35,292 bases of DNA. It comes from a virus. Made by a program: the position numbers and the translations under genes. The stretch lies in the IMG/VR virus record IMGVR_UViG_3300043570_002878, positions 1 through 35,292 of that record; one strand, written 5' to 3'. Each line of letters begins with the position of its first letter. Within the stretch, counting starts at the first letter, position 1. The notes beneath the pieces were generated by a model. It was given only the letters and a program-made list of their open reading frames with translations, did not search any database and was not told where the DNA came from. Of the stretch, positions 2,907 through 35,292 are shown one piece after another.

Positions 2907-3914
2907 TTAGGCTAACGCCTTAACCGCTTTGAGAATTTTATTCTTCTCTGCGGTAATGATTGGATCGAAACCACTTGCACCAGCATTTAGCGATTCGGTG
3001 TTACCAGTACGGGCGGTACGGTAATAATCTAAACGCTCAGTCAATGCATTAAACGCACCCCAAGCAGTGCCTTTAATTGTGTTATTAGTTGGTGAGTTAT
3101 GATAAAGGTCATCAATTAAAACAACCTTATTCTCCCACTTCTTTAATGCGCCTTTAACATCTGCTTCAGGCTTTGGGTATAGATTGCGAATCAAATCCGA
3201 GAATTGCTTATCGGTAATTGATTGCTTGAATAATTCGTCCGCTTCCTTTTGAAATGCATCTGCGTATGCAAATGTTAATCCCAATGCTTGACGGGCTTGC
3301 ACAATTCTACCTTCGGCAGTTTGTGTATGACGAATCTTGAATGATTGCTTAGCGCCCTTCATTGCAAGATTAAGAGTGTTTTGGCATACAACACGAACGG
3401 GTGTAATTGCTGCTTGAACCGCAACTGAACCGTCGTGAGATGTCCATACAATTAAATATAACTTAGTTTTATCGTTAATACCTTGTGGGTCTAATACGAT
3501 CTCTCTAGGTATATCTAATGAGCCAAATACAACTTTGCCCTTTTTAATTGAGCCAGCAGATTCCCATTTAGCAGAATCGTTATCTAATACATTATCAGCA
3601 AATGCGAATAACTCTTCATTCTGAACAGTTTTGTATCGCTTGCCAACTACTGATAAAACATCAGTGCCTTGGTCAAATGGATTATCACGAATGACAAAGA
3701 AATTGTCTGATGTATTTCTCCATGTGTTTGGGATATGATCTGCAACATCTGACAAGCGGACATTCCAGTTATTCAACTTTGCTTCTTCAAGCATTGTTGC
3801 GGTAGTTACATTTTCATCTTGAGCGAAAATGCGATTTGCAAGATTATGCCAAGCAGGTGCACCACGCAATGCAAATGCTACTTGACCATCTTGCTCTTCG
3901 AGATTATGAGCCAT
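2907..3914 (-). CDS. DUF932 / TIGR03299-type phage-plasmid protein, 335 aa
   Basis: The start MAHNLEEQDGQVAFALRGAPAWH is typical of the DUF932 (TIGR03299, phage/plasmid-like) family. The length of 335 aa matches the usual 300-350 aa. Family members occur on phages, plasmids and integrative elements; their biochemical role is not established. The protein has a conserved central region with VVCQNTLNLA and RHTQ and a charged helical C-terminal part. It is transcribed alone from its own promoter at 3942-3963 and is followed by a strong hairpin, so it is monocistronic. Confidence 0.88.
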   Translation of the reverse strand: MAHNLEEQDGQVAFALRGAPAWHNLANRIFAQDENVTTATMLEEAKLNNWNVRLSDVADHIPNTWRNTSDNFFVIRDNPFDQGTDVLSVVGKRYKTVQNEELFAFADNVLDNDSAKWESAGSIKKGKVVFGSLDIPREIVLDPQGINDKTKLYLIVWTSHDGSVAVQAAITPVRVVCQNTLNLAMKGAKQSFKIRHTQTAEGRIVQARQALGLTFAYADAFQKEADELFKQSITDKQFSDLIRNLYPKPEADVKGALKKWENKVVLIDDLYHNSPTNNTIKGTAWGAFNALTERLDYYRTARTGNTESLNAGASGFDPIITAEKNKILKAVKALA

Positions 3915-6297: not shown

Positions 6298-6404
6298 TAC
6301 AAATCCCCCATTTCTGCATCGGCCATTCTTGACATAGCCCAATCTTGAGCTAAATCCCGATCATAGACAACGCTACAATCTAAATCAAAATCAAATTCGT
6401 CCAT
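6297..6404 (-). CDS. Acidic microprotein, 35 aa
   Basis: Begins MDEFDFDLDCSVVYDRDL and ends MGDL. It has its own promoter (6433-6454) and the block AACGAAAGGTAAACTA, and its TAA overlaps the GP88 ATG as TAATG. Strongly acidic, no membrane segment. It may serve mainly as a leader that couples GP88 translation, or be a small DNA-mimic-like protein. Function unknown. Confidence 0.72.
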   Translation of the reverse strand: MDEFDFDLDCSVVYDRDLAQDWAMSRMADAEMGDL

Positions 6405-6432
6405 TAGTTTACCTTTCGTTGGGTGAATTGAT

Positions 6433-6454
6433 ATTATACCTAATACGGCTGACA
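6433..6454 (-). promoter_or_regulatory. Left-arm promoter, copy 8
   Basis: TGTCAG, 10 bp, TATAAT, reading leftward into the 35-aa gene and GP88. Confidence 0.78.
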
Positions 6455-6577
6455 TTTATTTGAAAACACCCAGTTTTTCAGGGTGTTTTTAGTCACACTC
6501 TTAACGACACGCCCGACCCCGCAGCCCTGGGGGCGCCGACACGCCCGACTGCGTTGTAAGCTGCGACACGCCCGAAA
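6455..6577. repeat. Intergenic repeat module 2
   Basis: Holds three exact CGACACGCCCGA copies (6505-6516, 6537-6548, 6564-6575), the terminator at 6463-6489 and a CCCCGCAGCCCTGGGG hairpin. It shares about 51 bp with module 1. The copies are GC-rich islands in an AT-rich genome. Confidence 0.75.
6463..6489 (-). terminator. Intrinsic terminator inside repeat module 2
   Basis: AAAACACCC and GGGTGTTTT form a 9-bp stem with a 9-base loop and flanking A/T runs on both sides, so it could work in both directions. It separates the 6578-7203 operon from the promoter at 6433-6454. Confidence 0.7.
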
Positions 6578-6709
6578 TTATATTAAATCAGATTTTTTAT
6601 ATTTAATTTTGCGTGTGTATTTTTTTTTATTGCGAATAGGTTGCGCCGCATTACTACGGCGCAACTCTTGTATTCGTTTTACTTTATCTAGAATTAAATT
6701 GGGGAACAT
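6578..6709 (-). CDS. Basic microprotein, 43 aa
   Basis: Begins MFPNLILDKVKRIQELRRSNAAQPI and ends in a very basic tail rich in Lys, Arg and Tyr. It overlaps the upstream gene by about 26 bp in another frame. An alternative ATG at 6727 would add six residues. The RRSNAAQP word reminds me of small actinophage proteins, and the basic tail suggests nucleic-acid binding. Function unknown; the start is uncertain. Confidence 0.5.
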   Translation of the reverse strand: MFPNLILDKVKRIQELRRSNAAQPIRNKKKYTRKIKYKKSDLI

Positions 6710-6875
6710 GATAACCGCTTGCTTCATAAAATTTGTTTGCGTCAAATTTAGGATTATCTTTAGCAAACATTAAAGCAAAATCCACAATTACTTTAGAAAA
6801 TAAAGCAGGGTGAGTTTTATCTGAAATATATTTCATAATTTCAGCAGTAGCAATATAATCTTTACGGGTCATCAT
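6684..6875 (-). CDS. Conserved actinophage-type hypothetical protein, 63 aa
   Basis: Begins MMTRKDYIATAEIMKYI and contains FAKDNPKFDANKFYEASG. This combination is common in small actinophage proteins of unknown function. The ATG overlaps the upstream TGA (AATGATG), so it is coupled to the 66-aa gene. Mostly helical; no catalytic motif seen. Confidence 0.82.
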   Translation of the reverse strand: MMTRKDYIATAEIMKYISDKTHPALFSKVIVDFALMFAKDNPKFDANKFYEASGYHVPQFNSR

Positions 6876-7072
6876 TTCTGCGACACCAATCCAATCCGAT
6901 TAAAGTTTTTAGTATACATTTTGCCATTAGGCATAGATAAATTATATGTTGCTAATTCATCAGCAAAGCCGACATCATAACATTTCGCAAACGCTTCAAA
7001 CGCTTGTAATGCGTCAGCAAATTGGTATGTGTATTCTAATTTGCCGTCATAGTAAGTATCTAGTCTATACAT
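6872..7072 (-). CDS. Hypothetical protein, 66 aa
   Basis: The ATG at 7072 overlaps the upstream stop as TAATG, so I take MYRLDTYYDGKLEY as the start rather than a GTG four codons earlier. The product looks like a small mixed fold with an N-terminal strand pair and a helix (FADALQAFEAFAKC). Function unknown. It is the second gene of the 6578-7203 operon. Confidence 0.8.
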   Translation of the reverse strand: MYRLDTYYDGKLEYTYQFADALQAFEAFAKCYDVGFADELATYNLSMPNGKMYTKNFNRIGLVSQK

Positions 7073-9347: not shown

Positions 9348-9968
9348 ATGATCCCTAAAATAATATGGCAAACTCATGAGTGGGAATTAGAGGATCTTCC
9401 AGATACTTTTAAGAAAAGTGTAGATAGCTGGAAAAATATGAATCCTACATGGGATTATAGATACACTAGTGCTAGAAAAAGATTAGAGCATATTAGAGAT
9501 TATGGCGGGGAAGAATTTTTAAAATTTTATAAAGACTGTAACAGACTTACTCAAGCAGATTTATGGAGATATGTAGTTTTATATAAATTTGGCGGGGTGT
9601 ACTCAGATCTAGATTGGGAATGTATTCGTCCTTTAGACGATATAATAGAAATAGAAAATGAAAAAAATCCAATAATTATTCATACATATATGGAAGATCA
9701 AAAAGATCCTTATAACAATAGTCTTATAGGGTCAGATGCTGGTCAACTAGTATTTAAAAAATTAATAGATGATGCTATAGGTAAGTTTAGATCTACCCCA
9801 GAAGCTAGAATTAACGAATTTTGTGGCTATAACTGTTGTCATAATAATGATAGAGAATGTAATGGTAGAAATGATTATCATTTAGGATATGAGTATTTTT
9901 CTAGACATTTAGAAGAGTATGCTTCTTTTATACTACCAAAACTTTGTTTAATTGCTAAGAGATGTTAG
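9348..9968 (+). CDS. Glycosyltransferase with DXD motif (OCH1 / Gly_transf_sug type), 206 aa
   Basis: Begins MIPKIIWQTHE, the standard opening of the DXD-sugar glycosyltransferase family. ADLWRYVVLYKFGGVYSDLD around residues 90-109 carries the acidic DLD that holds the metal and sugar nucleotide. Members transfer a sugar, often mannose- or galactose-like, from a nucleotide donor. The C-terminal part contains several Cys and His residues (CGYNCCHNND). Length is a little under the usual 230-250 aa, but the fold core is present. Probably glycosylates a surface component or virion protein. No ribosome-binding site; leaderless start. Confidence 0.82.
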   Translation: MIPKIIWQTHEWELEDLPDTFKKSVDSWKNMNPTWDYRYTSARKRLEHIRDYGGEEFLKFYKDCNRLTQADLWRYVVLYKFGGVYSDLDWECIRPLDDIIEIENEKNPIIIHTYMEDQKDPYNNSLIGSDAGQLVFKKLIDDAIGKFRSTPEARINEFCGYNCCHNNDRECNGRNDYHLGYEYFSRHLEEYASFILPKLCLIAKRC

Positions 9969-10016: not shown

Positions 10017-10844
10017 TTAAATATAAAACTTTTTGTACTCATCTGGGACTATTCCACCTTCTATGCTAGCTCCAGGGTTAACTATCTTTAATTCATACTC
10101 TGTAAACTTAGTTCCGTCGTCTTTAATATACGGGTCGTTTACAAAGTTTGTAGAAGTGCCTTCTTCTACTTGCCAGTGACCTTTAATTAAATACTTGTCC
10201 CCATTTCTAACTTCATATGCCGTATGTGGATAAATATGTGGCTTAAGTGGTGGGAATATAAGTACGCTAAATGCTTTTGGCTTTAACCAAAACGAAACCA
10301 GGTCTTTATTTTTTTCATGATCTGGCGGATACAAGCCATTTGGGCCTACCTCAAGATTTCCATTTACTACTTCAATTTTTTTGTCTGGATCTGGTAGACT
10401 AAAAGAAATTTCTCCACCTTCGTAGTCGTCGTTTAGGTAAAAGAGAATAGAGTAGCTTTCTAAATCTACTGGAGCGGTGTCTATGTGTGTCCCGTAAACG
10501 GTACCAGGACAGTGCTTGTCTATATGACTAAACTCATTGAACGGTTTAACATTATCTAATTTTTTTTCTTTTGCATAATGTTCTGCTGCTACATAAAATG
10601 CTTTGCTTATTATTTTATTAACTTCTGGATATTTTTTTTCATTAAATTCTTTTCTAAAAGCTATCATTCCGCTTTGGTTTGCTTTTATCTCTGGGTCACG
10701 GTTTGGGTTGTATACCCAACCTTTGTTATAAATTTGAACCCAATCTTCTGGTTGTTTTAATATAGATAAAACATATTCAGATTCCTCTTTAGGAATTAAG
10801 TCAGTGTAATAATAACAATTTTCATCTAATTTCTCAACATTCAT
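10017..10844 (-). CDS. 2-oxoglutarate/Fe(II) dioxygenase, prolyl-4-hydroxylase-like, 275 aa
   Basis: The C-terminal 160 residues show the P4H-type jelly-roll pattern: HID (iron-binding HxD) in YGTHIDTAP, then FYLNDDYEGGEISF, a VLIFPP strand, the distal His in PHIYPHTAYEV and a 2OG-binding Lys near KYLIKGHW. It hydroxylates an unknown substrate. The YLNDDYEGGE word recurs in most oxygenases of this window. The TATAAT box ends 6 bp before the ATG, so the mRNA is probably leaderless. Transcribed alone, divergently from tRNA-Asn. Confidence 0.88.
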   Translation of the reverse strand: MNVEKLDENCYYYTDLIPKEESEYVLSILKQPEDWVQIYNKGWVYNPNRDPEIKANQSGMIAFRKEFNEKKYPEVNKIISKAFYVAAEHYAKEKKLDNVKPFNEFSHIDKHCPGTVYGTHIDTAPVDLESYSILFYLNDDYEGGEISFSLPDPDKKIEVVNGNLEVGPNGLYPPDHEKNKDLVSFWLKPKAFSVLIFPPLKPHIYPHTAYEVRNGDKYLIKGHWQVEEGTSTNFVNDPYIKDDGTKFTEYELKIVNPGASIEGGIVPDEYKKFYI

Positions 10845-11164: not shown

Positions 11165-11944
11165 ATGAAACTTTCTATATTGCATCCAGACATTTGGTAT
11201 TTTGAAAACGCTATTCCAGAAGCAGAAAAATTTCTTTCTTTATTAGAGGACAATAAAAATATTACAAGCGTTATACCAGATTGGTCCGAATGGCGTGATA
11301 CTTATGCTAGAGGAGCAGATGAAGTAATTATCGATAAGCCCCTATCTGCTGGTGAAGGAGGGGCCCCCATGGGTGTAGATAAGTTTGTTGACTGGGATAT
11401 GTCAATAAATGATTATGGTAGAATTTGGCCAAGAATAGTACCAGATTCAGAAACCCACAATAAGGCATATCAAATATTAAAATTAATAGATTTACCATTT
11501 AAAAAAGTTTTAGATTATTATTGGTCACAAAATCCAGATTTTCCTAAACTTCAATACATTAGCAAAAACTATCCTATAAGAAAATATTCACCTGGAACAG
11601 CTATGCCAGTTCACGTAGACGCAACTGGTCTAGCTGGTACTACAGAGGATGATAAAATATCTATGGATTTAGCTGCTTTAATTTATTTAAATGACAAATA
11701 TACTGGCGGAGAACTTAATTTTGTTAATCTTGGAATTAGGTTTAAACCTTCTGCTGGAAGTATTGTTATTTTTGATGGAATAAAACATCAACACGAATCT
11801 ACTCTTATTGAATCTGGAAATAAAATATATATTCCTTTTTACATTCATACAAAATTTGGCTGGATTTCTTGTTTTAGAGAACCCGTAGAGGCTGGCGGTA
11901 GTCAAAATTTGTATCTTAATAAAGCACCTAGGTTGACAGACTAA
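11165..11944 (+). CDS. 2-oxoglutarate/Fe(II) dioxygenase, 259 aa
   Basis: Residues around 150 give MPVHVDATG with the iron-binding HVD, followed by IYLNDKYTGGELNF, a VIFDG strand, the distal His in KHQHEST and a Lys ten residues later for 2OG. The N-terminal 100 residues (IWYFENAIPEAEKFL, then a Trp-rich DWSEWRD) are shared in pattern with the truncated oxygenase at 35112, suggesting a sub-family. Leaderless start. Substrate unknown. Confidence 0.85.
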   Translation: MKLSILHPDIWYFENAIPEAEKFLSLLEDNKNITSVIPDWSEWRDTYARGADEVIIDKPLSAGEGGAPMGVDKFVDWDMSINDYGRIWPRIVPDSETHNKAYQILKLIDLPFKKVLDYYWSQNPDFPKLQYISKNYPIRKYSPGTAMPVHVDATGLAGTTEDDKISMDLAALIYLNDKYTGGELNFVNLGIRFKPSAGSIVIFDGIKHQHESTLIESGNKIYIPFYIHTKFGWISCFREPVEAGGSQNLYLNKAPRLTD

Positions 11945-14508: not shown

Positions 14509-15339
14509 TTATTTTTCTAAGTCAATAATATTATTTTTTTTATTTAACATTTTTTCATTTATTATTTTTGTTTTTTCTTCTATCATTTCAGCAAACTGAG
14601 GGTTAGCTCTTAATGGAGAATTCCATTCATTTAATTGGTCTTCTGTAGGATTTTCATATTTTCCTATTTGTTCATACCATTCAGGAGTTTTATAATTATA
14701 AAATGTGCCTGGGTTATCTTCTGCTAATAATGCAAAACAGGAAAATGCAAATCTAACTCCAGATTCAGTTTCTCTTGTTCCATGATCATATGGAGAACAT
14801 GCCCCATGCAAAACTATATCTCCTGGTTCAGGCTGGACTTCAAAACAAGGCTCTTCTAATCTTTCTTTGCTAATCTCTAAACCTTCTTTTACACTACCGT
14901 CTGGATTTATATTCGGATAAAATAATTTTCCACCAGTAAATTCTCCAAAATATGCAATCATTCCATATTCTAATTCACAACAAGTGGTCCATTGATCAAT
15001 TTCTAATAACATGTGGCAGTTGCCTTTTCCTGGGCTATCCGAATGAACAAACATTCCTTCATCTCCAGGCATTGCCATCATAAAGTTTGTAACTGGGTGT
15101 ATAACAATTTCTGGATGAATTAATTCTGACATAAATTTCCAAAGCGGGAAGCTGCTTGGAAAAGAATGAGTCATTTTATCTTGATACCAGTCTCTAACAC
15201 TCCAGTCATTGTCATTTGATCCTCTAACAAAAGTATTTAAATCTTTAGTAATTGTTTCTGACATTTCTTTAGGAATAATATTTTTAAATATATAAATTCT
15301 GTCAGCTAATTTTATACATTGTGGATGATCATAAAACAT
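14509..15339 (-). CDS. 2-oxoglutarate/Fe(II) dioxygenase, 276 aa
   Basis: MFVHSDSPG near residue 95 supplies the HxD pair; GDIVLHGACSPYDHGTRETESGVRFAFS gives the distal His (YDH) and the 2OG-binding Arg. Overall like prolyl-4-hydroxylase-type enzymes, but it lacks the YLNDDYEGGE word (AYFGEFTGGKLFY instead), so it belongs to another branch. The last 50 residues are charged. Ribosome-binding site AGAGGAAAT; an internal TATAAT at 15373-15378 may add transcription. Last gene before the terminator. Confidence 0.85.
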   Translation of the reverse strand: MFYDHPQCIKLADRIYIFKNIIPKEMSETITKDLNTFVRGSNDNDWSVRDWYQDKMTHSFPSSFPLWKFMSELIHPEIVIHPVTNFMMAMPGDEGMFVHSDSPGKGNCHMLLEIDQWTTCCELEYGMIAYFGEFTGGKLFYPNINPDGSVKEGLEISKERLEEPCFEVQPEPGDIVLHGACSPYDHGTRETESGVRFAFSCFALLAEDNPGTFYNYKTPEWYEQIGKYENPTEDQLNEWNSPLRANPQFAEMIEEKTKIINEKMLNKKNNIIDLEK

Positions 15340-16651: not shown

Positions 16652-17641
16652 ATGAATATTTCATTTTCTACGCCTATTGTTAACCTGAGAACTAATAATG
16701 GATACGGATATGCAAGTAAAAATATAATAAAATCTTTAAATAACTTAGGACACTTTACTCCATTTCAAGATCCAAAATCTAAATTACAATTAAATTTTTC
16801 ACAACCATCACATTTTAAATTACATAAAAATCAATATCAAATTAGTTATACACCATGGGAATCTACTGTAATTCCAAAAGATTGGAAATATTATATGGAT
16901 GCATGCGACGAAGTTTGGGTAACTTCAGATTGGTGTGCAAATGTATTTGAAGATAATGGTTTTAAGGTTTCTAATGTATACCCACACGGCATTGATCCTA
17001 TGTGGATACCAAATAGAAGAAAAGAAGAGGGTGTAATTAAATTTTTGCATATAGGAGAACCAGCACCAAGAAAAGCTGGACAAATGGTACTAGATGCATT
17101 CGGCAGCTTGTTTGGAAATAAAGAAGGATATTCATTAACCATTAAAGCAGATCAAATAAATACAACTAGAGTATATAACAATTATCTAGATAAAAATATT
17201 TTAGGTGTTCCAGATAAATATTACAACAATGTGTCTGTAATTACAGATGTTTTAAATGACGAAGAACTTGTAAACCTGTATCAGTCTCATGATGTTTTAG
17301 TATATCCAAGCTATGGAGAAGGATTTGGATTTATTCCACTGCAAGCACTAGCAACTGGCATGCCAACAATTTGTACAAGCGGCTGGGCGCATTACGAAAA
17401 ATATTTAGGTCCATTAAAATTAAAATCAGAACTAATAGATTCACCTTGGCCATTCCCACACGAAGGAAAAGTTTTTGAGCCAAACTATCAACACCTACTT
17501 GAACTTATGAGAGACGTTTCAATAAACTTTAATGCATATTCAGGATATTATTTTGCTCAGTCAACTAAAATACATAAAGATTATAATTGGAAACAGTTGA
17601 CTAAGAATTCATTTGATAAAATTTTAAAAAAACTTAATTAA
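16652..17641 (+). CDS. GT4-type glycosyltransferase (GT-B fold), 329 aa
   Basis: N-terminal GYGYASKNII is the usual glycine-rich start for this group. FLHIGEPAPRKAGQMVLDAF opens the C-terminal domain, and VYPSYGEGFGFIPLQALATG carries the conserved Glu pair that binds the nucleotide sugar. This is the family 1 / GT4 layout of bacterial glycosyltransferases. It probably adds a sugar to a cell-surface glycan or virion protein. The start lacks a strong ribosome-binding site (AGAAAGAATTT). Lies between the lysozyme-like gene and the reductase. Confidence 0.87.
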   Translation: MNISFSTPIVNLRTNNGYGYASKNIIKSLNNLGHFTPFQDPKSKLQLNFSQPSHFKLHKNQYQISYTPWESTVIPKDWKYYMDACDEVWVTSDWCANVFEDNGFKVSNVYPHGIDPMWIPNRRKEEGVIKFLHIGEPAPRKAGQMVLDAFGSLFGNKEGYSLTIKADQINTTRVYNNYLDKNILGVPDKYYNNVSVITDVLNDEELVNLYQSHDVLVYPSYGEGFGFIPLQALATGMPTICTSGWAHYEKYLGPLKLKSELIDSPWPFPHEGKVFEPNYQHLLELMRDVSINFNAYSGYYFAQSTKIHKDYNWKQLTKNSFDKILKKLN

Positions 17642-27704: not shown

Positions 27705-29036
27705 ATGAGTAAAAGATCTGGTAGAAAATCCCAAGCAGCAAACGATTTCTTAGAGCCAAAACCTGTAGAAAGCTTAACCGCTACAGATGTAGGAACATCT
27801 AGGACATTTAATAACGGAGCAGCAAATTTATCATGGTCTCTACCAGCTGGCTCACCAGAAGCTACAAGTTATACAATAACAACAACTCCATCATCAACAA
27901 CTGAAACTACATCTAATACATCTTTTCAGTTTACAGGACTATCTTCAAATACATCATATACATTTTCAGTAGTTGGAAGCAATGCAGCAGGATCTTCTGC
28001 TGCAACAGAGTCTAGCTCTGTATTAATTACTACTGTGCCAGCAAAGCCAGTTTCTGTAAGCGCAGCATCACCAAGCGCTGATCAAGACGTAGTATCCTGG
28101 TCAGCAGGAGCAACTGGAGGTAAAGCAATTACTAGCTTTACAGTTGTTTCATCAGATGGACCTTCATATCCAAACTCTACGTCACCAAAAACTATTTCAG
28201 AAACAGCAAATACATCACAAACATATACTATTTATGCAATTAATGATAATGGAACATCACAAGGAGAAACTACTAATTCAGTTACAACAACAGCACCTTA
28301 CTTCCCACCGTTCTTCCCTTACTTCCCACCGTTCTTCCCGTTCTTCCCGTTCTTCCCACCTTACTTCCCACCGTTCTTCCCGTTCTTCCCGTTCTTCCCA
28401 CCATACTTCCCACCGTTCTTCCCGTTCTTCCCGTTCTTCCCACCGTTCTTCCCACCGTTCTTCCCACCAAGATTCGGTCCTTACTTCCCACCGTTCTTCC
28501 CACCAAGATTCGGTCCTTACTTCCCAGCATGTGTTGATGGAGATACTTTAATATTAACTAGCGAAGGCCCAAAGCCAGCAAGAAAAATTAAAGTTGGAGA
28601 TAAATTGTTAACAGTTGATGCTCTAGGTTTAATAAATCAACCTAACTCAACTCCTCTTGAAATAAACGTTCAAGACTTAATAATAACCAACCTAGCACAC
28701 ACAGAGGTTACAAATGTGATAGTCTCAGACAAGCAAGACAGAGTTTACTTCAATGGAAACAGCGAAGCTCAATTCACAGAGACTCACCCAATATTTGTAA
28801 AGCGTAATAACGAATATCGTGTAGTCGAGGCAGGTACAGTTCAAGAGGGAGATATATTAATAAATATCTCAGTAGACAACTTATCTGAATCACTAGATAT
28901 GAGTAAGATTATCTCAGAAGTTGAAGTATCTAAAGTAGATAAAATAACTTTAGAATTAGCAAAAGATGTTTATACATTTAGTTGCAGCCCACATAACTGG
29001 TACTTTGCAGGAGATATATTAACTCACAATAAGTAA
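27705..29036 (+). CDS. Fn3 - Phe/Pro/Tyr repeat - Hint domain protein, 443 aa
   Basis: Three parts are visible. Residues about 20-110 and 112-196 are two fibronectin-III-like domains (NLSWSLPAGS...SYTFSVVGSNAAG; DVVSWSAG...TYTIYAINDNG). Residues 198-274 are almost only Phe, Pro and Tyr, built from YFPPFFPFFPFFPP units plus two RFG interruptions. Residues 276-443 are a Hint domain: catalytic Cys in CVDGDTLIL, block B TETHPIFV, and the end YFAGDILTHNK with the His-Asn pair. The protein ends one residue after HN, so there is no C-extein. The Hint part may self-cleave or attach the rest to a nucleophile. Last gene before the oxygenase operon. Confidence 0.85.
   Translation: MSKRSGRKSQAANDFLEPKPVESLTATDVGTSRTFNNGAANLSWSLPAGSPEATSYTITTTPSSTTETTSNTSFQFTGLSSNTSYTFSVVGSNAAGSSAATESSSVLITTVPAKPVSVSAASPSADQDVVSWSAGATGGKAITSFTVVSSDGPSYPNSTSPKTISETANTSQTYTIYAINDNGTSQGETTNSVTTTAPYFPPFFPYFPPFFPFFPFFPPYFPPFFPFFPFFPPYFPPFFPFFPFFPPFFPPFFPPRFGPYFPPFFPPRFGPYFPACVDGDTLILTSEGPKPARKIKVGDKLLTVDALGLINQPNSTPLEINVQDLIITNLAHTEVTNVIVSDKQDRVYFNGNSEAQFTETHPIFVKRNNEYRVVEAGTVQEGDILINISVDNLSESLDMSKIISEVEVSKVDKITLELAKDVYTFSCSPHNWYFAGDILTHNK
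28296..28528 (+). repeat. Tandem repeat coding for the Phe/Pro/Tyr tract
   Basis: About 230 bp of 9-bp and 42-bp units using only TTC, CCA/CCG/CCT/CCC and TAC codons, so the plus strand is strongly pyrimidine-rich. Almost no synonymous drift in Phe (TTC) and Tyr (TAC) suggests recent expansion or selection on the DNA. Confidence 0.85.
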
Positions 29037-29049
29037 TAGATTAATAATC

Positions 29050-29073
29050 AAAACCCCCCAAAAGGGGGTTTTG
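29050..29073 (+). terminator. Intrinsic terminator after the Hint gene
   Basis: AAAACCCCC and GGGGGTTTT pair around a short loop, followed by T-rich sequence. Ends the fibre transcript right before the oxygenase promoter. Confidence 0.88.
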
Positions 29074-29079
29074 GTATTC

Positions 29080-29108
29080 TTGACAATATATATATAATTA
29101 TATATAAT
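29080..29108 (+). promoter_or_regulatory. Perfect consensus promoter of the oxygenase operon
   Basis: TTGACA (29080-29085), 17 bp, TATAAT (29103-29108). Matches sigma70/SigA consensus at all 12 positions with ideal spacing, the strongest promoter in the window. Confidence 0.9.
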
Positions 29109-29131: not shown

Positions 29132-29851
29132 ATGTCAGATATTTATGATATAGACAGCAATCCTTGGTTTACAAAAGATAGGTCAGAATCAACTTCCTTT
29201 AGAGTAGAAAGATCTTTTGAAAATATTAAAGTTTTAAATCCAGGAATTGGATTAAATATCTATCAGTCAGCTATCACAGATGATGTTTGTAAAAAATCAA
29301 TTAAAATATTAGAAGATAAATTAACTAATGGTAAAATTTATAAATGGTCAGAAGCACAAGTTACAACTTCCGACAAACCAGTAAAATCTGCAAGAGACTG
29401 TGTTGATTTTAAATTTAAGCCAGAAAACCTTGGACAAAGAAATGAAAACAATTCAGAACTTTTAGATATGCATCAATCAATATATGATGTATTAAAAAAA
29501 TGTATAGATGATTATTGTAAATATTGGGGAATTAATGTAATATACTATGAAGCATTTAACTTTGTAAAATACACAAGCCCAGGACAACATTTTAGGGTTC
29601 ATGCAGATCATGGACCGCATTATAATTGTACAGTATCTGCTGTAATTTATTTAAACGATGATTACGAAGGCGGAGAAATAGCGTTTCCAAGATTAGACAA
29701 ATTAGTATACAAGCCAAAACGTGGCGATGTAGTAATATTCCCATCAAACTATATATACGAGCACTCTTCAGAACCAATGATTTCTGGAGACAAGTACTCA
29801 GTTGTAGTTATGATGGATATTAACCTATTAGGACATAAGGAGAACAAATAA
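29132..29851 (+). CDS. 2-oxoglutarate/Fe(II) dioxygenase, 239 aa
   Basis: First gene of the operon. HFRVHADHGPHYN gives the HxD iron ligands, then VIYLNDDYEGGEIAF, VVIFPSNYIYEHSSEP with the distal His, and a Lys near DKYSVVVM for 2OG. Very similar in layout to the next gene, so the pair arose by duplication. Prolyl-4-hydroxylase-like; substrate unknown. Unlike many genes here it has a real leader of about 17 bases. TAATG overlap with the next gene. Confidence 0.88.
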   Translation: MSDIYDIDSNPWFTKDRSESTSFRVERSFENIKVLNPGIGLNIYQSAITDDVCKKSIKILEDKLTNGKIYKWSEAQVTTSDKPVKSARDCVDFKFKPENLGQRNENNSELLDMHQSIYDVLKKCIDDYCKYWGINVIYYEAFNFVKYTSPGQHFRVHADHGPHYNCTVSAVIYLNDDYEGGEIAFPRLDKLVYKPKRGDVVIFPSNYIYEHSSEPMISGDKYSVVVMMDINLLGHKENK

Positions 29852-30507
29852 TGAATAAACAAACTTGGTCAAGCGCAGAAGATTTAGGATCAGGAATTTG
29901 GGTATATAGAGATGTTTTAACAAAAGACCTAGACATTATTAATAGACTAGAGTCAAATTTAGATGGCAATACTCCAGGATGGACATGGCAGCCAGCCTAT
30001 GTAGGATATCAAGAAAGAATGCCAGAATACAGAGAATGCGTTGATTTTAAATTTAAAAAATCAGATATAGCTAATGACAAATCTCCTATATCATTAAAAA
30101 TGCAAGAATTGTGGCAAGATTGCTATGACAGACAAGCACCAGCAGTAGATGACTATTGCAAAAAACATAATATACATAGACTACAATATTGGGAAGCTTT
30201 TAATTTTATTAAATATGTTCCTGGTCATCATTTCATGGAGCACCATGATCATGGATTTTCATATAACTGCACAGTCTCTTTGGTAGGTTATATTAACGAT
30301 GATTACGAGGGCGGAGAATTATATTTTAGACTACAAGATTTAAATATTAAACCAAGGGCTGGCGACTTATATATATTCCCTTCAACATACATGTACCCCC
30401 ATCAGGCTAAAGTAGTTAAGTCTGGAACTAAATATTCTTTGGTTACAATGCTAGATTACAGCGCAAAGTTTCATACACCAGCAATGTATGAAGACACTGG
30501 TGACTAA
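29851..30507 (+). CDS. 2-oxoglutarate/Fe(II) dioxygenase, 218 aa
   Basis: HHFMEHHDHGFSYNC supplies HxD, then VGYINDDYEGGELYF, LYIFPSTYMYPHQAK with the distal His, and a Lys in TKYSLVTM. Shares CVDFKFK and the EAFNFIKY region with the preceding protein, showing recent duplication. The start overlaps the upstream stop as TAATG, and its stop overlaps the following start likewise. Confidence 0.88.
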   Translation: MNKQTWSSAEDLGSGIWVYRDVLTKDLDIINRLESNLDGNTPGWTWQPAYVGYQERMPEYRECVDFKFKKSDIANDKSPISLKMQELWQDCYDRQAPAVDDYCKKHNIHRLQYWEAFNFIKYVPGHHFMEHHDHGFSYNCTVSLVGYINDDYEGGELYFRLQDLNIKPRAGDLYIFPSTYMYPHQAKVVKSGTKYSLVTMLDYSAKFHTPAMYEDTGD

Positions 30508-31226
30508 TGCCGATATTAAAAGCATATAAAACAAACCCAAATTCATTTATATTGGATCCAATTTCAGTAAAAAGAGACTGGATGGATGAAACTCCTGACG
30601 GACACGCATATAGGTGTTTCCCAGTAACTATGGCCAATACTATAGGCTGGACGCTGTCCTGTCCAGTAGACGTTTCATTTATATGGGATGGGAAAATAGA
30701 CACAACCCCAGACAGAGTTAAAATTTTGTCAGGAGAGCAATATTGCTATACTGGAAGAGGGCAGGGCTCAGTAAGTTTTAATACAGGACTTATATTAAAA
30801 TCAGAAAAAAATATAAGCGTACTAAGCATTACTCCACAAAATTATTTTTATGAAGATTTTGAGGTAATGTCATCTTTAATAAGTACATCTTTTTTTAATG
30901 TAGATTTTCCATTAGCAATTAAAGTTAAAATTCCAAACAAAGAAATTACTATAAAAGCTGGAACACCAATTGCTACAATTATTCCAATTTCTCTTACTTC
31001 TTTAAAAGATGAATCTATAGAAATAAATAATTTTATATCTACTGATGAATATAGAGATAAATTAAAAAAATATGGAGACGCAGCACAAGTAATAAATCAA
31101 AGTGGAAATTGGACAGATTGGTACAGAGATGCTATTGACGAAACTGGTAATTCTATTGGTGAGCACGAAGTTAAGTCTTTAAAGCTTAAAGTAATAGATA
31201 ATACAAAAGAACAAAACAATGCTTAA
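30507..31226 (+). CDS. DUF6065-like protein, 239 aa
   Basis: The N-terminal half has KRDWMDETPDGHAYRCFPVTMANTIGW, close to the DUF6065 pattern (W-M-D-x-T-P, then Y-R-C-x-P, then A-N-x-x-G-W). The C-terminal half is beta-rich (IPNKEITIKAGTPIATIIPI). The family is uncharacterised; a double-stranded beta barrel is likely. TAATG overlap at the start puts it inside the oxygenase operon, suggesting it helps bind or present the substrate. A second relative follows. Confidence 0.7.
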   Translation: MPILKAYKTNPNSFILDPISVKRDWMDETPDGHAYRCFPVTMANTIGWTLSCPVDVSFIWDGKIDTTPDRVKILSGEQYCYTGRGQGSVSFNTGLILKSEKNISVLSITPQNYFYEDFEVMSSLISTSFFNVDFPLAIKVKIPNKEITIKAGTPIATIIPISLTSLKDESIEINNFISTDEYRDKLKKYGDAAQVINQSGNWTDWYRDAIDETGNSIGEHEVKSLKLKVIDNTKEQNNA

Positions 31227-31947
31227 TAAAATCAAATTTGTTTCTAACAGGCCGTGGTTAAATAAAAATAGTGTATCTAAGCCAATGCCTGCAATTAAAG
31301 AAATTCCAGATTGGTTTAGAAAAGCAGATAGGTTTGCAATTAACCCAATTACAAAAGATTATTGGCAAGGACCAGACGGGGGAAAAATTCCTACGTGGAA
31401 AGCTTGCCCAGCAATATTTGATATATTAGGTACAGGGTATGTTTTAAAAACGCCATGTGATATTAAATTTTATTTAAAAAATAATAAAATGTCTGTTGAA
31501 ATTAAAGAACCTAAATTTAAAGATTTTTGTTCTGAAAGACAACCAATGCCACAATTCGTACACCCACAAGGATACTACAAAGAACATTTTGCCTGGTATC
31601 CAGATTGGGCAATAGAACTACCAGAAGGATATAGCGCTTTATACACAACACCATTTAATAGATTTGATTTACCATTTTTAATGACAACTGGAATTGTAGA
31701 TAACGATAAAATTAATTTGCCAGGAACTATGCCATTTTTTATTGTTAAAGGGTTTGAAGGCGTAATTCCAGCAGGAACACCATACGCACAAATAATTCCA
31801 TTTAAAAGAGAAGACTGGGATTCAGACATTATAATAGAAAACCCAAATAACTTGCATAAAAAAAATCAAGAAAATAGCAATAAATATAGAGTTAAAGATG
31901 GTGGAGTATATAAAAATGAAGTTTGGTCTAAAAGAGTTTACGAATAG
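31219..31947 (+). CDS. Second DUF6065-like protein, 242 aa
   Basis: Starts MLNKIKFVSNRPWLNKN. It shares the end pattern VIPAGTPYAQIIPF and the placement of Cys-Pro (WKACPAIFDIL) with the preceding protein, so I see it as a distant paralogue; the family assignment is less certain. The middle (DWAIELPEGYSALYTTPFNRFDLPF) is rich in aromatic residues, as in ligand-binding barrels. Overlaps the previous gene by 8 bp. No catalytic motif seen. Confidence 0.6.
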   Translation: MLNKIKFVSNRPWLNKNSVSKPMPAIKEIPDWFRKADRFAINPITKDYWQGPDGGKIPTWKACPAIFDILGTGYVLKTPCDIKFYLKNNKMSVEIKEPKFKDFCSERQPMPQFVHPQGYYKEHFAWYPDWAIELPEGYSALYTTPFNRFDLPFLMTTGIVDNDKINLPGTMPFFIVKGFEGVIPAGTPYAQIIPFKREDWDSDIIIENPNNLHKKNQENSNKYRVKDGGVYKNEVWSKRVYE

Positions 31948-31952
31948 AATGG

Positions 31953-31958
31953 TATAAT
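31953..31958 (+). promoter_or_regulatory. Internal -10 box in the oxygenase operon, leaderless type
   Basis: GGTATAAT, with TATAAT ending 6 bp before the ATG at 31965, directly after the stop of the upstream gene. Same arrangement as at 11153-11165. Confidence 0.6.
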
Positions 31959-31964
31959 GAATAT

Positions 31965-32636
31965 ATGGATAAAGAATTAGCAAACGGTGCACATAATTGG
32001 GAAAATAGAGTATCAATAACCCCTCCAGGATTTTTTGGGACTTCTGCAGATCAAATACAATCAAGAGAAAATTTTATGACAGAAGAAGAAAAAATATTTT
32101 TGCTAAATGCAGCAAAATCAATTAATGAATGGGACAAGACAGAAACTCATTACAATGATAATGGAATTGTAATATATGATTCATCTTATTGGGACAATAG
32201 AGTTGCATCAAGACCAATTTTAGATTCAATAGATCCAGAAATTTCTATTGTTATTGAAAACCTTGTAAAAAGACTTAAAGTAGAAGTTGATAATTTTTTT
32301 AATGTCGATGCAAAACCCACTAGTCCAGCTATAGTAAGATGGATGCCTGGATATAAACAGGAACCGCATGCAGATAAACAATTACAAAATGGAGAGCCAA
32401 ATGATTTTCCTTGGTACGATTTAGCTGGATTATTTTACCTTAATGATGACTACGAAGGCGGAGAACTATATTTTTTAAATCAAGGAGTAGAGTTTAAACC
32501 AAAACCAGGGGCAGCTTATTTTTTCCCAGGAGATGTTGGATATAGTCATGGAGTTAAAGAAATTACAAGTGGAATTAGATATGTAATTCCATTTTTTTGG
32601 ACAATATTAGAGCACACTGGAGATAAAAAACCATGA
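31965..32636 (+). CDS. 2-oxoglutarate/Fe(II) dioxygenase, 223 aa
   Basis: QEPHADKQ gives HxD; LFYLNDDYEGGELYF, FKPKPGAAYFFPG, YSHGVKEI with the distal His, and GIRYVIPFFW with the 2OG-binding Arg complete the pattern. Most like the 33442 protein, with which it shares the GEPNDF/GEPNAF region. No ribosome-binding site; the TATAAT box at 31953-31958 suggests a leaderless mRNA in addition to read-through. Stop overlaps the next start. Confidence 0.88.
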   Translation: MDKELANGAHNWENRVSITPPGFFGTSADQIQSRENFMTEEEKIFLLNAAKSINEWDKTETHYNDNGIVIYDSSYWDNRVASRPILDSIDPEISIVIENLVKRLKVEVDNFFNVDAKPTSPAIVRWMPGYKQEPHADKQLQNGEPNDFPWYDLAGLFYLNDDYEGGELYFLNQGVEFKPKPGAAYFFPGDVGYSHGVKEITSGIRYVIPFFWTILEHTGDKKP

Positions 32637-33445
32637 ATAAAGAATTAGAAATTATAAAGATTTATCCAAAAATACATATATATAGAAATGTTTTTAATGA
32701 TGTAGATTTATTTTTGGAAAAAGCAAAAAAATGTGTTGTTTGGGAAGAGTGGTATACGTTTGGGACGATGCTGCCTCTTCAAGAAGCGCCAATTAGATTT
32801 ACATCATTTCCAACAAGAGAAGAATATATAAATTCTAGACGTTGGCAAGTAGAAACCGACAACGATGTTTTAAGGGCGGATTTAACAAAAGAATTAGGAG
32901 AAATCTTTTATGACGTAACTAGTAATTTTTTAAATTCTTATACAGACATATCTTTTAATAATTGGGTAAAATACCCAGCATCAATAAATAAATATTTTGA
33001 AGGTGCGGGAATAACAGATAATTATGCTATGAACTACCATACAGATTTTGTACAATTAGAAAAAGATGCACCAGGAATTAAATTTGGAATTACTACAACA
33101 TTTTATTTAAATGATGACTATGAAAATGGGGAAATTTGTTTTAAAGTTGGTGATGATATATTGTCTCACAAACCTAAAAAAGGAGACGTAATAGTATTTC
33201 CTTCCTCACCACCATACTATCATGCAGTTAGAAGAGCAGACGGCACAGATAGGTATATGATTAGATCATTTTGGCAATTTGATTACGAAGGATCACCAGA
33301 ATGGATAGAAAATGAAAATAAATATGGTAAAGAAATTTGGGATAAAATGGAAAAAGACAGAATTAAAGAAAATAGAAATGTAGGTCAAATTAATGCTGAA
33401 GAATTACATAAATTGTTTGGCAAAAATAATGGATTGCATTTATGA
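32633..33445 (+). CDS. 2-oxoglutarate/Fe(II) dioxygenase, 270 aa
   Basis: MNYHTDFVQ (HxD), TFYLNDDYENGEICF, VIVFPSSPPYYHAVRR with the distal His, and RYMIRSFWQ with the Arg. The C-terminal 45 residues are a charged helix. Paralogue of the 34277 gene, sharing YPKIHIYRN-like and YHTDF segments. ATGA overlap with the previous gene and with the next. Substrate unknown. Confidence 0.88.
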   Translation: MNKELEIIKIYPKIHIYRNVFNDVDLFLEKAKKCVVWEEWYTFGTMLPLQEAPIRFTSFPTREEYINSRRWQVETDNDVLRADLTKELGEIFYDVTSNFLNSYTDISFNNWVKYPASINKYFEGAGITDNYAMNYHTDFVQLEKDAPGIKFGITTTFYLNDDYENGEICFKVGDDILSHKPKKGDVIVFPSSPPYYHAVRRADGTDRYMIRSFWQFDYEGSPEWIENENKYGKEIWDKMEKDRIKENRNVGQINAEELHKLFGKNNGLHL

Positions 33446-34284
33446 AGCAATGTACTTGTGGAAGATCAAAAGCTTACCCATATTGTGACGGAACACATAA
33501 AAAGAAAAAGGAGTCATTAATGAAAAACGGAATGATAGATGTTTTAGATAGTAGCAAATTTATTATTTTACAAGATGAAGAAATTCCAGAAAGTAAAGCT
33601 GGAGTACTTGGAGTATATACTAATAAAATTGTAGAAATACCTAATTTTATAGACCCAGAAATTGTTCCAAAAATGATTAATTTTTTTGAAAATTGTAATG
33701 TTGATTGGGGAGATATTGCGTTTTATGGTTCCTCTGGAAAAGGAATTATGACAGATTCTGAGACAATGAAAAAATTTGAATTACCAGATGGATTTTTTGA
33801 TAAGTTAAAAAATAAATATCAAGAAACAGTAGAATTAGTATTTGGTAGAGAAGTTAGAGCAAATACCTCTCATGCACAAAAATGGGATGTTGGAGGGTTT
33901 GCAAGCCCACATTCAGATAATTCAGATAATAAAGGAGAGCCTAATGCTTTTGCAATAAATAAATATGTAGGAATACTTTATCTTAATGATGATTACGAAG
34001 GCGGAGAATTGTATTTTTGTGACAAAGATAACGAAATGAAAACCTATTTATCTTTTAAGCCAAACGTTTATTCTTATTATGTTTTCCCTGGAGGATATGA
34101 AAATATTCACGGTGTCTCAGAAATAACCAAAGGTACAAGATACACCATGGTTTCATTTTGGGATTACGCAGATTCAGTTTACGATCAAGAAACATTAGAT
34201 AGATGGGAAGAAGAAGAAAAGCAAGTTAGAATTGAACAGGCAAAGCAAAAAGAAGAATGGAATAAAGGAAACAAATATGCTTGA
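33442..34284 (+). CDS. 2-oxoglutarate/Fe(II) dioxygenase with N-terminal CDGSH iron-sulfur motif, 280 aa
   Basis: Residues 4-19 read CTCGRSKAYPYCDGTH, which fits the CDGSH [2Fe-2S] motif exactly (C-x-C-x2-S-x3-P-x-C-D-G-T-H). A Lys-rich linker follows. The oxygenase part has SPHSDNSD (HxD), LYLNDDYEGGELYF, IHGVSEI with the distal His and TRYTMVSFW with the Arg. An in-frame ATG at 33520 with AAGGAGT in front could yield the oxygenase alone (254 aa). ATGA overlap at the start. The iron-sulfur part might donate an electron to keep iron reduced. Confidence 0.85.
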   Translation: MKQCTCGRSKAYPYCDGTHKKKKESLMKNGMIDVLDSSKFIILQDEEIPESKAGVLGVYTNKIVEIPNFIDPEIVPKMINFFENCNVDWGDIAFYGSSGKGIMTDSETMKKFELPDGFFDKLKNKYQETVELVFGREVRANTSHAQKWDVGGFASPHSDNSDNKGEPNAFAINKYVGILYLNDDYEGGELYFCDKDNEMKTYLSFKPNVYSYYVFPGGYENIHGVSEITKGTRYTMVSFWDYADSVYDQETLDRWEEEEKQVRIEQAKQKEEWNKGNKYA

Positions 34285-35128
34285 GGGTACAGATTTTTAT
34301 AAAATAGCTCCAAAGATTATTGTTTACAAAAATGTCTTCAATAATGATTATTTTATGGAATGTTTTGAACACATTAAGTCTATTGATAATATGTGGGTAG
34401 ACTGGTACATATATGGCAAGCAGACAAACTTTCCAGTTAAAGATACTAGACCACACAATGTTCCAGGAGTTTTGCCCTATAATGAATTTAAACAAGATAT
34501 TAATTTTGACGAAGTCACAGATGAAAAGCTTAAATTTTTCTATAACTACATAGAAGATGTTTTTTATAATACGACCAAGCACTATTTTGAGCTTACTGGA
34601 GAGACTCCACCAGAAGGCTCTCCGATAAGCCACTTTACCGCAACCCTACTTAAGTATATACCTCATGAGAGTTTTGAACCAGCTGGATCAGTAATGGGAT
34701 ACCACACAGATTTTCAGCAAGAAAAAACCGAAGAGCCAGGCTTTAAATTTTTTGTAACATGCTGCATGTATTTAAATCATGATTATGATGGAGGACAAGT
34801 ATCCTTTAAGATATTTCAAGATGAATCAAATGATCCAAATGCAGAGTATGTAAAACATATGTACCAACCAGAATTTGGCGATGTAACAATTTTTCCATCA
34901 AGAGCACCATACTATCACGGAGTAAAGACTGTAACAAATGGAATAAAGTATTTTATTAGAAGTTTTTATATGTATAGCTATCCAGGCTCGGAAGCATGGC
35001 ATGCAAACAAAGATAAATATGGCGAAGAGCTATGGAAACAGATGGATAGAGAAAGACAGATAGCTGATCTAAAATCTGGTAAAAATGAAAGAAAAGATGC
35101 AGACGAAAAAAATGGAAGAAATGGATAG
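34277..35128 (+). CDS. 2-oxoglutarate/Fe(II) dioxygenase, 283 aa
   Basis: The start MLEGTDFYKIAPKIIVYKN at 34277 is chosen because AAAGGAAAC lies before it and it overlaps the upstream stop by 8 bp; a longer frame from 34232 lies within the previous gene. MGYHTDFQQ (HxD), CMYLNHDYDGGQVSF, VTIFPSRAPYYHGVKT with the distal His, and KYFIRSFY. Paralogue of the 32633 gene, with a larger insert. Charged C-terminal helix. Confidence 0.87.
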   Translation: MLEGTDFYKIAPKIIVYKNVFNNDYFMECFEHIKSIDNMWVDWYIYGKQTNFPVKDTRPHNVPGVLPYNEFKQDINFDEVTDEKLKFFYNYIEDVFYNTTKHYFELTGETPPEGSPISHFTATLLKYIPHESFEPAGSVMGYHTDFQQEKTEEPGFKFFVTCCMYLNHDYDGGQVSFKIFQDESNDPNAEYVKHMYQPEFGDVTIFPSRAPYYHGVKTVTNGIKYFIRSFYMYSYPGSEAWHANKDKYGEELWKQMDRERQIADLKSGKNERKDADEKNGRNG

Positions 35129-35292
35129 CGTAAATCTAATCCAATACGGTAAGATACATTACTATGAAAATGTTATTACTGATCCCGACTACTTAATTAA
35201 TTTAATAGAGCTTTCTGACGGAGGCTTAAATGAAAACACCAGTATCCCTGCGTGGAAAGAATGGGCGGCAAGCGGAGATACAGAGTATGTAT
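35112..35292 (+). CDS. N-terminus of a further 2OG/Fe(II) oxygenase, cut by the window edge
   Basis: About 60 codons are present, starting MEEMDSVNLIQYGKIHYYEN (a second Met at 35121 is also possible). YGKIHYYENVITDPDYLINLI followed by a Trp-rich IPAWKEWAASGD matches the N-terminal part of the 11165 oxygenase (IWYFENAIPEAEKFL, IPDWSEWRD). The catalytic half lies beyond the window. Overlaps the upstream gene end by 17 bp. Confidence 0.65.
   Translation, partial: MEEMDSVNLIQYGKIHYYENVITDPDYLINLIELSDGGLNENTSIPAWKEWAASGDTEYV

Follow-up and report, generated by a model that had tools for sequence, protein, structure and literature searches.

A run of prolyl-hydroxylase-like genes linked to a Phe-Pro repeat fibre gene suggests a dedicated protein-hydroxylation operon in a tailed phage

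We analysed a 35,292-nucleotide stretch of viral DNA (IMG/VR record IMGVR_UViG_3300043570_002878, positions 1 to 35,292; hereafter the window), which ends in a run of genes for 2-oxoglutarate (2OG)/Fe(II) oxygenases resembling prolyl 4-hydroxylases (P4H). The initial annotation had counted seven such genes in the run and three elsewhere, and all ten are present at the positions it had given. The run, on the plus strand, comprises the P4H-like slot A (29132–29851; PF13640, 5e-13) and its P4H-like sister slot B (29851–30507; 1e-11), slot C (31965–32636; 1e-8), the faster evolving slot D (32633–33445; 3e-8), slot E (33442–34284; 6e-9), an additional slot-D-type copy (34277–35128; 2e-8) and slot F (35112–35292), which is cut by the window end. 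Slot F is complete (212 amino acids, 6341–6979; PF13640, 2e-14) on contig L037, which matches the window at 100% over 6,548 bp and extends beyond its end. One stand-alone gene (11165–11944, plus strand), which also has a sub-threshold Tet_JBP match, passes the PF13640 cut-off, as do the six complete genes of the run. The other two, a distant one (10017–10844, minus strand) and a very distant one (14509–15339, minus strand), fall below the Pfam threshold and were caught by a hidden Markov model built from the run genes and extended iteratively to related loci (6e-35 and 2e-19, respectively), as was the truncated slot F.

The active sites are intact. The iron triad HxD/E...H and the 2OG-binding residue are present in all nine complete copies of the window; H157, D159, H211 and K221 of slot A are invariant among 35 sequences, and the two most distant genes retain H/D/H/K (10017) and H/D/H/R (14509). 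All four catalytic positions (H, D/E, H and K/R, the last being the ligand of the 2OG carboxylate, found about 10 residues past the second His) are kept in 935 of the 935 related sequences that cover them. The initial annotation had named unrelated, separately acquired genes with degraded HxD...H motifs in most copies as the observation that would speak against its proposal; this was not what we found, and we therefore reject the hypothesis of degenerate copies. Slot E additionally carries an N-terminal CDGSH iron-sulfur motif (CTCGRSKAYPYCDGTH; window 33442–33492; zf-CDGSH, 5e-7), which is found only in its own subgroup of slot E. The same fusion occurs in 24 related loci, several of them overlapping copies of one phage, and all 25 ORFs (open reading frames) with the CDGSH motif among the loci are fusions to a 2OG oxygenase.

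Neighbouring genes of the run mostly overlap by 1–17 bp or abut, so that a single operon is likely. The earlier description of seven oxygenases in one operon stands to this extent, but the series is interrupted after slot B by two non-oxygenase genes on the same strand: D1 (30507–31226; PF19541, 1e-31), a DUF6065 protein conserved within the cluster, and the DUF6065-like D2 (31219–31947; phrog_7084, 4e-37), which has a weak match to dUTPase-type folds. Elsewhere, DUF6065 relatives occur close to genes for thymidylate synthase and DNA polymerase in haloviruses and close to ribonucleotide reductase in S-RIM4. A predicted sigma-70 promoter (TTGACA-17-TATAAT; 29080–29108, plus strand) with 12 of 12 consensus bases ends 23 bp before slot A; it is retained in all six close relatives examined (L015, L018, L023, L057, L059 and L060), whereas shuffled versions of the promoter stretches score at most 11/12. 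The perfect 12/12 match is absent in more distant relatives. Inspection of the sequence also revealed a terminator-like hairpin (29049–29073, plus strand) between the operon and the gene upstream. In the same six relatives, judged by eye, its pairing is constant while the stem sequence changes, and the promoter spacers change too. The initial annotation was silent on the DUF6065 genes, on the promoter and on the upstream gene, features that most likely give the run its meaning.

This upstream gene (27705–29036, plus strand; Pfam fn3, 1e-9; Intein_splicing, 3e-5) lies directly before the enzyme run, a conserved position, and is itself preceded by tail-fibre genes at about 20.4–27.7 kb. It encodes a fibre or spike protein, our proposed substrate, in which fn3 domains are followed by a 77-residue Phe-Pro-Tyr repeat (PYFPPFFPYFPPFFPFFP...; 28302–28532, to within a few codons; 34 F, 33 P, 6 Y, 2 R and 2 G) and a C-terminal Hint domain of the hedgehog/intein autoprocessing type (28533–29036, start approximate). 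Among 171 distinct repeat stretches, Phe and Pro make up 93% of residues and Pro alone 45%, the commonest words being PFFP, PPFF and FFPP. Codon usage in the repeat is distinctive: all 34 Phe codons of the window copy are TTC, whereas twelve other window genes use TTT 149 times and TTC 14 times; in 170 related proteins the TTC share is 86% in the repeat versus 16% in the 2OG genes. Avoidance of T runs, translation speed and copying of the repeat are candidate causes, although the varied Pro codons disfavour simple copying alone.

The Hint domain of the window begins with CVDGDT, has TETH mid-domain and ends in LTHNK, so that the C1 and block-B TxxH residues expected for autoprocessing are both there. 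The terminal HN is followed by Lys and then the stop codon. As this leaves no Cys, Ser or Thr extein residue at the +1 position, as a self-splicing intein would have, cleavage or transfer rather than splicing would be expected. The distinct tails that follow the repeat fall into Hint (37), Cys-rich (41), short (32) and other (17) types, and among the 37 Hint tails a C1-like start, TxxH and terminal HN were seen in 28, 28 and 26, respectively. A BLAST search of phage isolates with the fn3/Phe-Pro/Hint protein, the repeat being masked, matched nothing beyond weak Hint similarity in Erwinia and Dickeya phages. In five contigs (L076, L077, L080, L097 and L110) the reading frame of the Phe-Pro repeat differs from that of the fn3 domain (for example, L077 at about 3357–3700). 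These contigs share the junction ...TGLTN then GTAYTF (AAT C GGA), while both flanking parts diverge between them; a programmed +1 frameshift and an inherited break are candidate explanations.

Linkage of the repeat to the oxygenases was examined from both directions. We scanned IMG/VR with a DNA pattern for FFPPFFPPFFP, using no enzyme information. Among the matches listed, a 2OG gene lay within 3 kb downstream on the same strand for 61 of 74 repeat ORFs, as against 2 of 50 upstream. When loci of these matches were joined at ≥80% nucleotide identity, the figures became 33 of 41 lineages downstream versus 2 of 34 upstream (Fisher p = 3e-11), with a median gap of 535 bp. By contrast, genes with the collagen repeat (GPP)4 in IMG/VR had a 2OG gene downstream in 1 of 58 cases, and we therefore reject a generic linkage of 2OG genes to any repeat fibre. 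Starting instead from the enzymes (80 loci, 65 of them with enough sequence), we found that 58 of 65 had a repeat ORF next to the first oxygenase. The seven exceptions also hold the repeat: L077, L079 and L080 have it in a shifted frame, L112 at the edge where the locus starts, and L088, L089 and L093 as a weaker version on the opposite strand.

The number of oxygenases per contig is likewise unusual. The initial annotation had considered the scale exceptional for a phage, and this is borne out: 15 related contigs carry 6–12 PF13640 hits apiece, against a maximum of 3 in 44 control virus contigs of 30–200 kb, 8 of which have any. PF13640 hits occur in 19 of 27 contigs with the repeat, often 6–11 each, even though these contigs were picked mostly for having no or few 2OG genes by the repeat. 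The longest run has 11 oxygenases (L165). For marine T4-like cyanophages, a published table lists at most five 2OG oxygenases per genome (PMC3037559). A scan of genome contigs for the repeat gave 17 hits, with a repeat ORF in five contigs of metagenome-assembled genomes, three of which have 2OG genes too; these contigs are probably binned phage contigs. Two such contigs, L237 and L249, labelled Verrucomicrobiales and Chitinophagaceae, hold Phe-Pro, 2OG and DUF6065 genes together.

Profile searches against the PDB placed P4H and/or prolyl 3-hydroxylase 1 (P3H1) at or near the top for slots A and B combined, C, D, E and F, with best E values between 2e-10 and 0.009. The solved relatives include B. 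anthracis P4H, algal P4H, P3H1 and LH3, all of them protein-prolyl or lysyl hydroxylases. P3H1 ranked first for slots E (2e-10), C (2e-6) and D (0.002, alongside algal P4H), and the slot A profile also matched LH3; designed-protein matches of the slot C profile were taken as chance. The AlphaFold2 model of slot A (predicted local distance difference test score, pLDDT, 86) has the double-stranded beta-helix fold. Its best Foldseek matches were Chlamydomonas P4H-1 structures (2jig and 3gze, one with a (Ser-Pro)5 peptide; 1e-11), and it also matched PHD2, the Pseudomonas putida P4H in complex with EF-Tu, and vCPH, the prolyl hydroxylase of PBCV-1 (5c5t). Neither TET/JBP nor AlkB enzymes were the nearest relatives of any run gene in the Pfam and PDB profile searches; sequence and structure alike placed the enzymes closer to prolyl hydroxylases than to AlkB, TET or PhyH.

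In a tree of 130 oxygenases (quick search, SH-aLRT branch support only), the run genes sit in clades with about one copy per phage. The 29132, 29851 and 31965 clades have 17 rows each, as does the 33442 group, and 35112 groups with near orthologs. The pairs that the initial annotation had read as separate duplications mostly hold: 29132 and 29851 are in sister clades (support 92), 31965 and 33442 share a group (88), as do 32633 and 34277 (94), and 11165 and 35112 fall in a broader group that also includes 10017 (94). The duplications are, however, ancient, predating the phages compared, and given the orthologous clades we reject a recent tandem expansion for most slots. The orthologous slots are kept across phages whose slot A proteins are 50–95% identical to that of the window. 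By the Nei-Gojobori method, dN/dS is about 0.03–0.2 in most comparisons for slots A, B, C and E and both DUF6065 genes, and about 0.2–0.4 for 32633; some comparisons had near-saturated dS, and the most distant one, which paired non-orthologs at two slots, was excluded. Gene 34277 has no ortholog in the seven near relatives tested, is missing from relatives 98% identical to the window, and looks newly gained or lost. Conserved orthologous slots under strong purifying selection do not support the rapid diversification against a varying target that had been one of two proposed readings, 32633 and 34277 being the only fast or variable exceptions. The other proposal, a multi-step oxidative tailoring pathway, remains the best reading, with a virion protein as the target.

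On the linkage seen from both directions, the conserved slots, the catalytic residues, the purifying selection, the solved relatives and the proline-dense repeat, we think it probable that the run forms a tailed-phage operon dedicated to protein hydroxylation, its P4H- and P3H-like enzymes hydroxylating the Phe-Pro repeat in a fibre or spike made by the phage itself, with the Hint domain processing the end of that protein. That this repeat is a main substrate appears about equally probable. The P4H-like slots A, B and F and the P3H-like slots C and E, with D mixed, would act on repeat prolines before or during virion assembly, perhaps with 4-hydroxyproline formed first and 3-hydroxyproline next on the neighbouring residue of PP doublets, as in collagen maturation. 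A repeat that is otherwise very hydrophobic could thereby become a rod that is soluble, stiff or open to glycosylation. Cleavage by the Hint domain at the repeat end might follow, the domain either removing itself or handing the C-terminus to an acceptor; in place of Hint, other members of this phage group have a Cys-rich tip. This suggests that the phages chemically harden or decorate a Phe-Pro spike. Several points weigh against our interpretation. Linkage is not proof of a substrate, and a collagen-like fibre gene (L037, 6987–8108) also adjoins the cluster. Eight of the 41 repeat lineages among the matches listed have no 2OG gene within 3 kb, many of these contigs carrying 2OG genes elsewhere. 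The PDB profile hits are weak for slots D and F, and TM-scores of the slot A model to P4Hs are moderate (about 0.6). Nor does the proposal explain the need for six or seven enzymes or the role of DUF6065.

The strongest competitor, though an unlikely one, is that the enzymes chiefly target other virion fibres, such as the adjoining collagen-like one, in the way that P4H acts on chlorovirus collagen-like proteins, the Phe-Pro protein being a mere neighbour. Known viral P4Hs do act on collagen-like or proline-rich peptides (cited in PMC9301287), and in L037 the collagen-repeat gene lies between slot F and a second Phe-Pro repeat protein, a relative of which in L009 has an N-terminal PASTA domain. 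Yet the L037 fibre has few prolines, chiefly at the X position of GXY, and the near absence of 2OG genes behind (GPP)4 genes stands against the frequent linkage of the Phe-Pro repeat.

We regard as improbable a role of the cluster in producing or editing modified nucleotides or DNA, with TET/JBP- or AlkB-like oxygenases and a dUTPase-like DUF6065 partner. The sub-threshold Tet_JBP match in 11165, the genes near which DUF6065 is found in haloviruses and S-RIM4, and its predicted structure point in this direction: the DUF6065 model (AlphaFold2, D2; pLDDT 90.5) weakly resembles dUTPase and dCTP-deaminase folds, dUTPases being its best Foldseek matches (E about 1e-3; TM-score to the query about 0.3). 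The catalytic Asp is not conserved, a candidate motif-3 Asp being found in just 24 of 45 DUF6065 sequences; tail-fibre genes precede the run, which shows linkage to the gene of a fibre protein, and the run's nearest solved relatives act on protein rather than DNA. Similarly poor odds attach to hydroxylation of a host protein for cell takeover, for example of EF-Tu as by the Pseudomonas P4H. The EF-Tu complex among the slot A matches and the host-type consensus of the operon promoter are compatible with it, but it leaves the many diverged slots and the tight fibre-gene linkage unaccounted for. Least probable of all is a metabolic role, whether 2OG drawdown or modification of small molecules or sugars, as put forward for cyanophages (PMC3037559) and in line with the glycosyltransferase-like genes elsewhere in the window, because one enzyme would suffice as a 2OG sink whereas seven conserved, specialised slots adjoin the fibre gene.

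The proposed Phe-Pro hydroxylation system shares features with several known ones. PBCV-1 vCPH and other viral P4Hs are likewise virus-coded enzymes of the Fe/2OG prolyl hydroxylase fold with a likely viral structural substrate, but they are single enzymes for collagen-like or proline-rich peptides, whereas here at least seven diverged enzymes are encoded in one operon next to a Phe-Pro repeat; the linkage to a (GPP)n gene expected of a viral collagen prolyl hydroxylase system was, as described above, not seen in IMG/VR (1 of 58), and the collagen-like fibre that adjoins the cluster in L037 is poor in proline. Chlamydomonas P4H-1, the best structural match of slot A, uses Ser-Pro or extensin-like substrates, a polyproline-type repeat as proposed here, but without a Phe-rich repeat or an operon. 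Its substrates are eukaryotic wall proteins. The animal collagen set (P4H, P3H1 and LH3) applies several distinct 2OG hydroxylases to one repetitive fibre, as we propose for the phage; slots C and E are closest to P3H1, but the sequence similarity is distant and 3-hydroxylation by them is a prediction. The 2OG genes of T4-like cyanophages (phrog_61 and others) belong to the same superfamily, slot A being at most about 30% identical to genes of isolates, and have been proposed as nitrogen-stress or DNA-repair factors (PMC3037559). Most copies of the Hint domain have the C1, TxxH and terminal HN block motifs of Hint and bacterial intein-like domains, but the domain is C-terminal on a repeat fibre and followed by Lys instead of a Cys, Ser or Thr extein.

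More tentatively, and with less confidence than in the operon itself, we raise the possibility of a widespread, undescribed phage material: a shaft of FFPP/FFP repeats, during whose maturation a set of P4H- and P3H-type enzymes, joined in some lineages by a linked cytochrome P450 or the CDGSH-fused hydroxylase, would oxidize Pro and possibly Phe or Tyr, the shaft being closed off through Hint-mediated ligation or by a disulfide tip. Such a process would parallel, in bacterial viruses, the maturation of collagen or extensin. In the literature searched, with partial coverage, we found no description of this enzyme-bank/Phe-Pro system, no relevant paper on phage polyproline hydroxylation or FFPP, and none naming DUF6065. 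Genes for 2OG oxygenases are frequent in phages, where they tend to be classed as auxiliary metabolic genes whose use is unclear; with a conserved bank of such enzymes linked to a repetitive, proline-dense candidate substrate, the role of phage prolyl hydroxylases can be tested directly. If our interpretation is correct, tailed phages use a series of enzymes to mature a fibre after its translation, which would add a new hydroxylated repeat material and could have consequences for host attachment of actinobacterial phages.

The host is probably an actinobacterium, as judged from gene content: WhiB, an actinobacterial marker, is encoded in 7 of 15 related contigs, including that of the close relative L023, the ribonucleotide reductase is about 65% identical to those of Streptomyces phages, and DUF7455 and GP88 are present. 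On the same grounds we reject a T4-like cyanophage origin.

Some further genes lie in or near these loci. In L077 (4763–5893; PF00067, 3e-22) and L080 (7142–8272), a cytochrome P450 gene separates the gene of the Phe-Pro protein from the 2OG run, and a glutathione peroxidase gene (PF00255, 9e-27) adjoins the 2OG genes in L088 (9035–9658, minus strand). The window's glycosyltransferase-like genes (9348–9968 and 16652–17641; PF04488 and PF00534) might act on hydroxylated residues.

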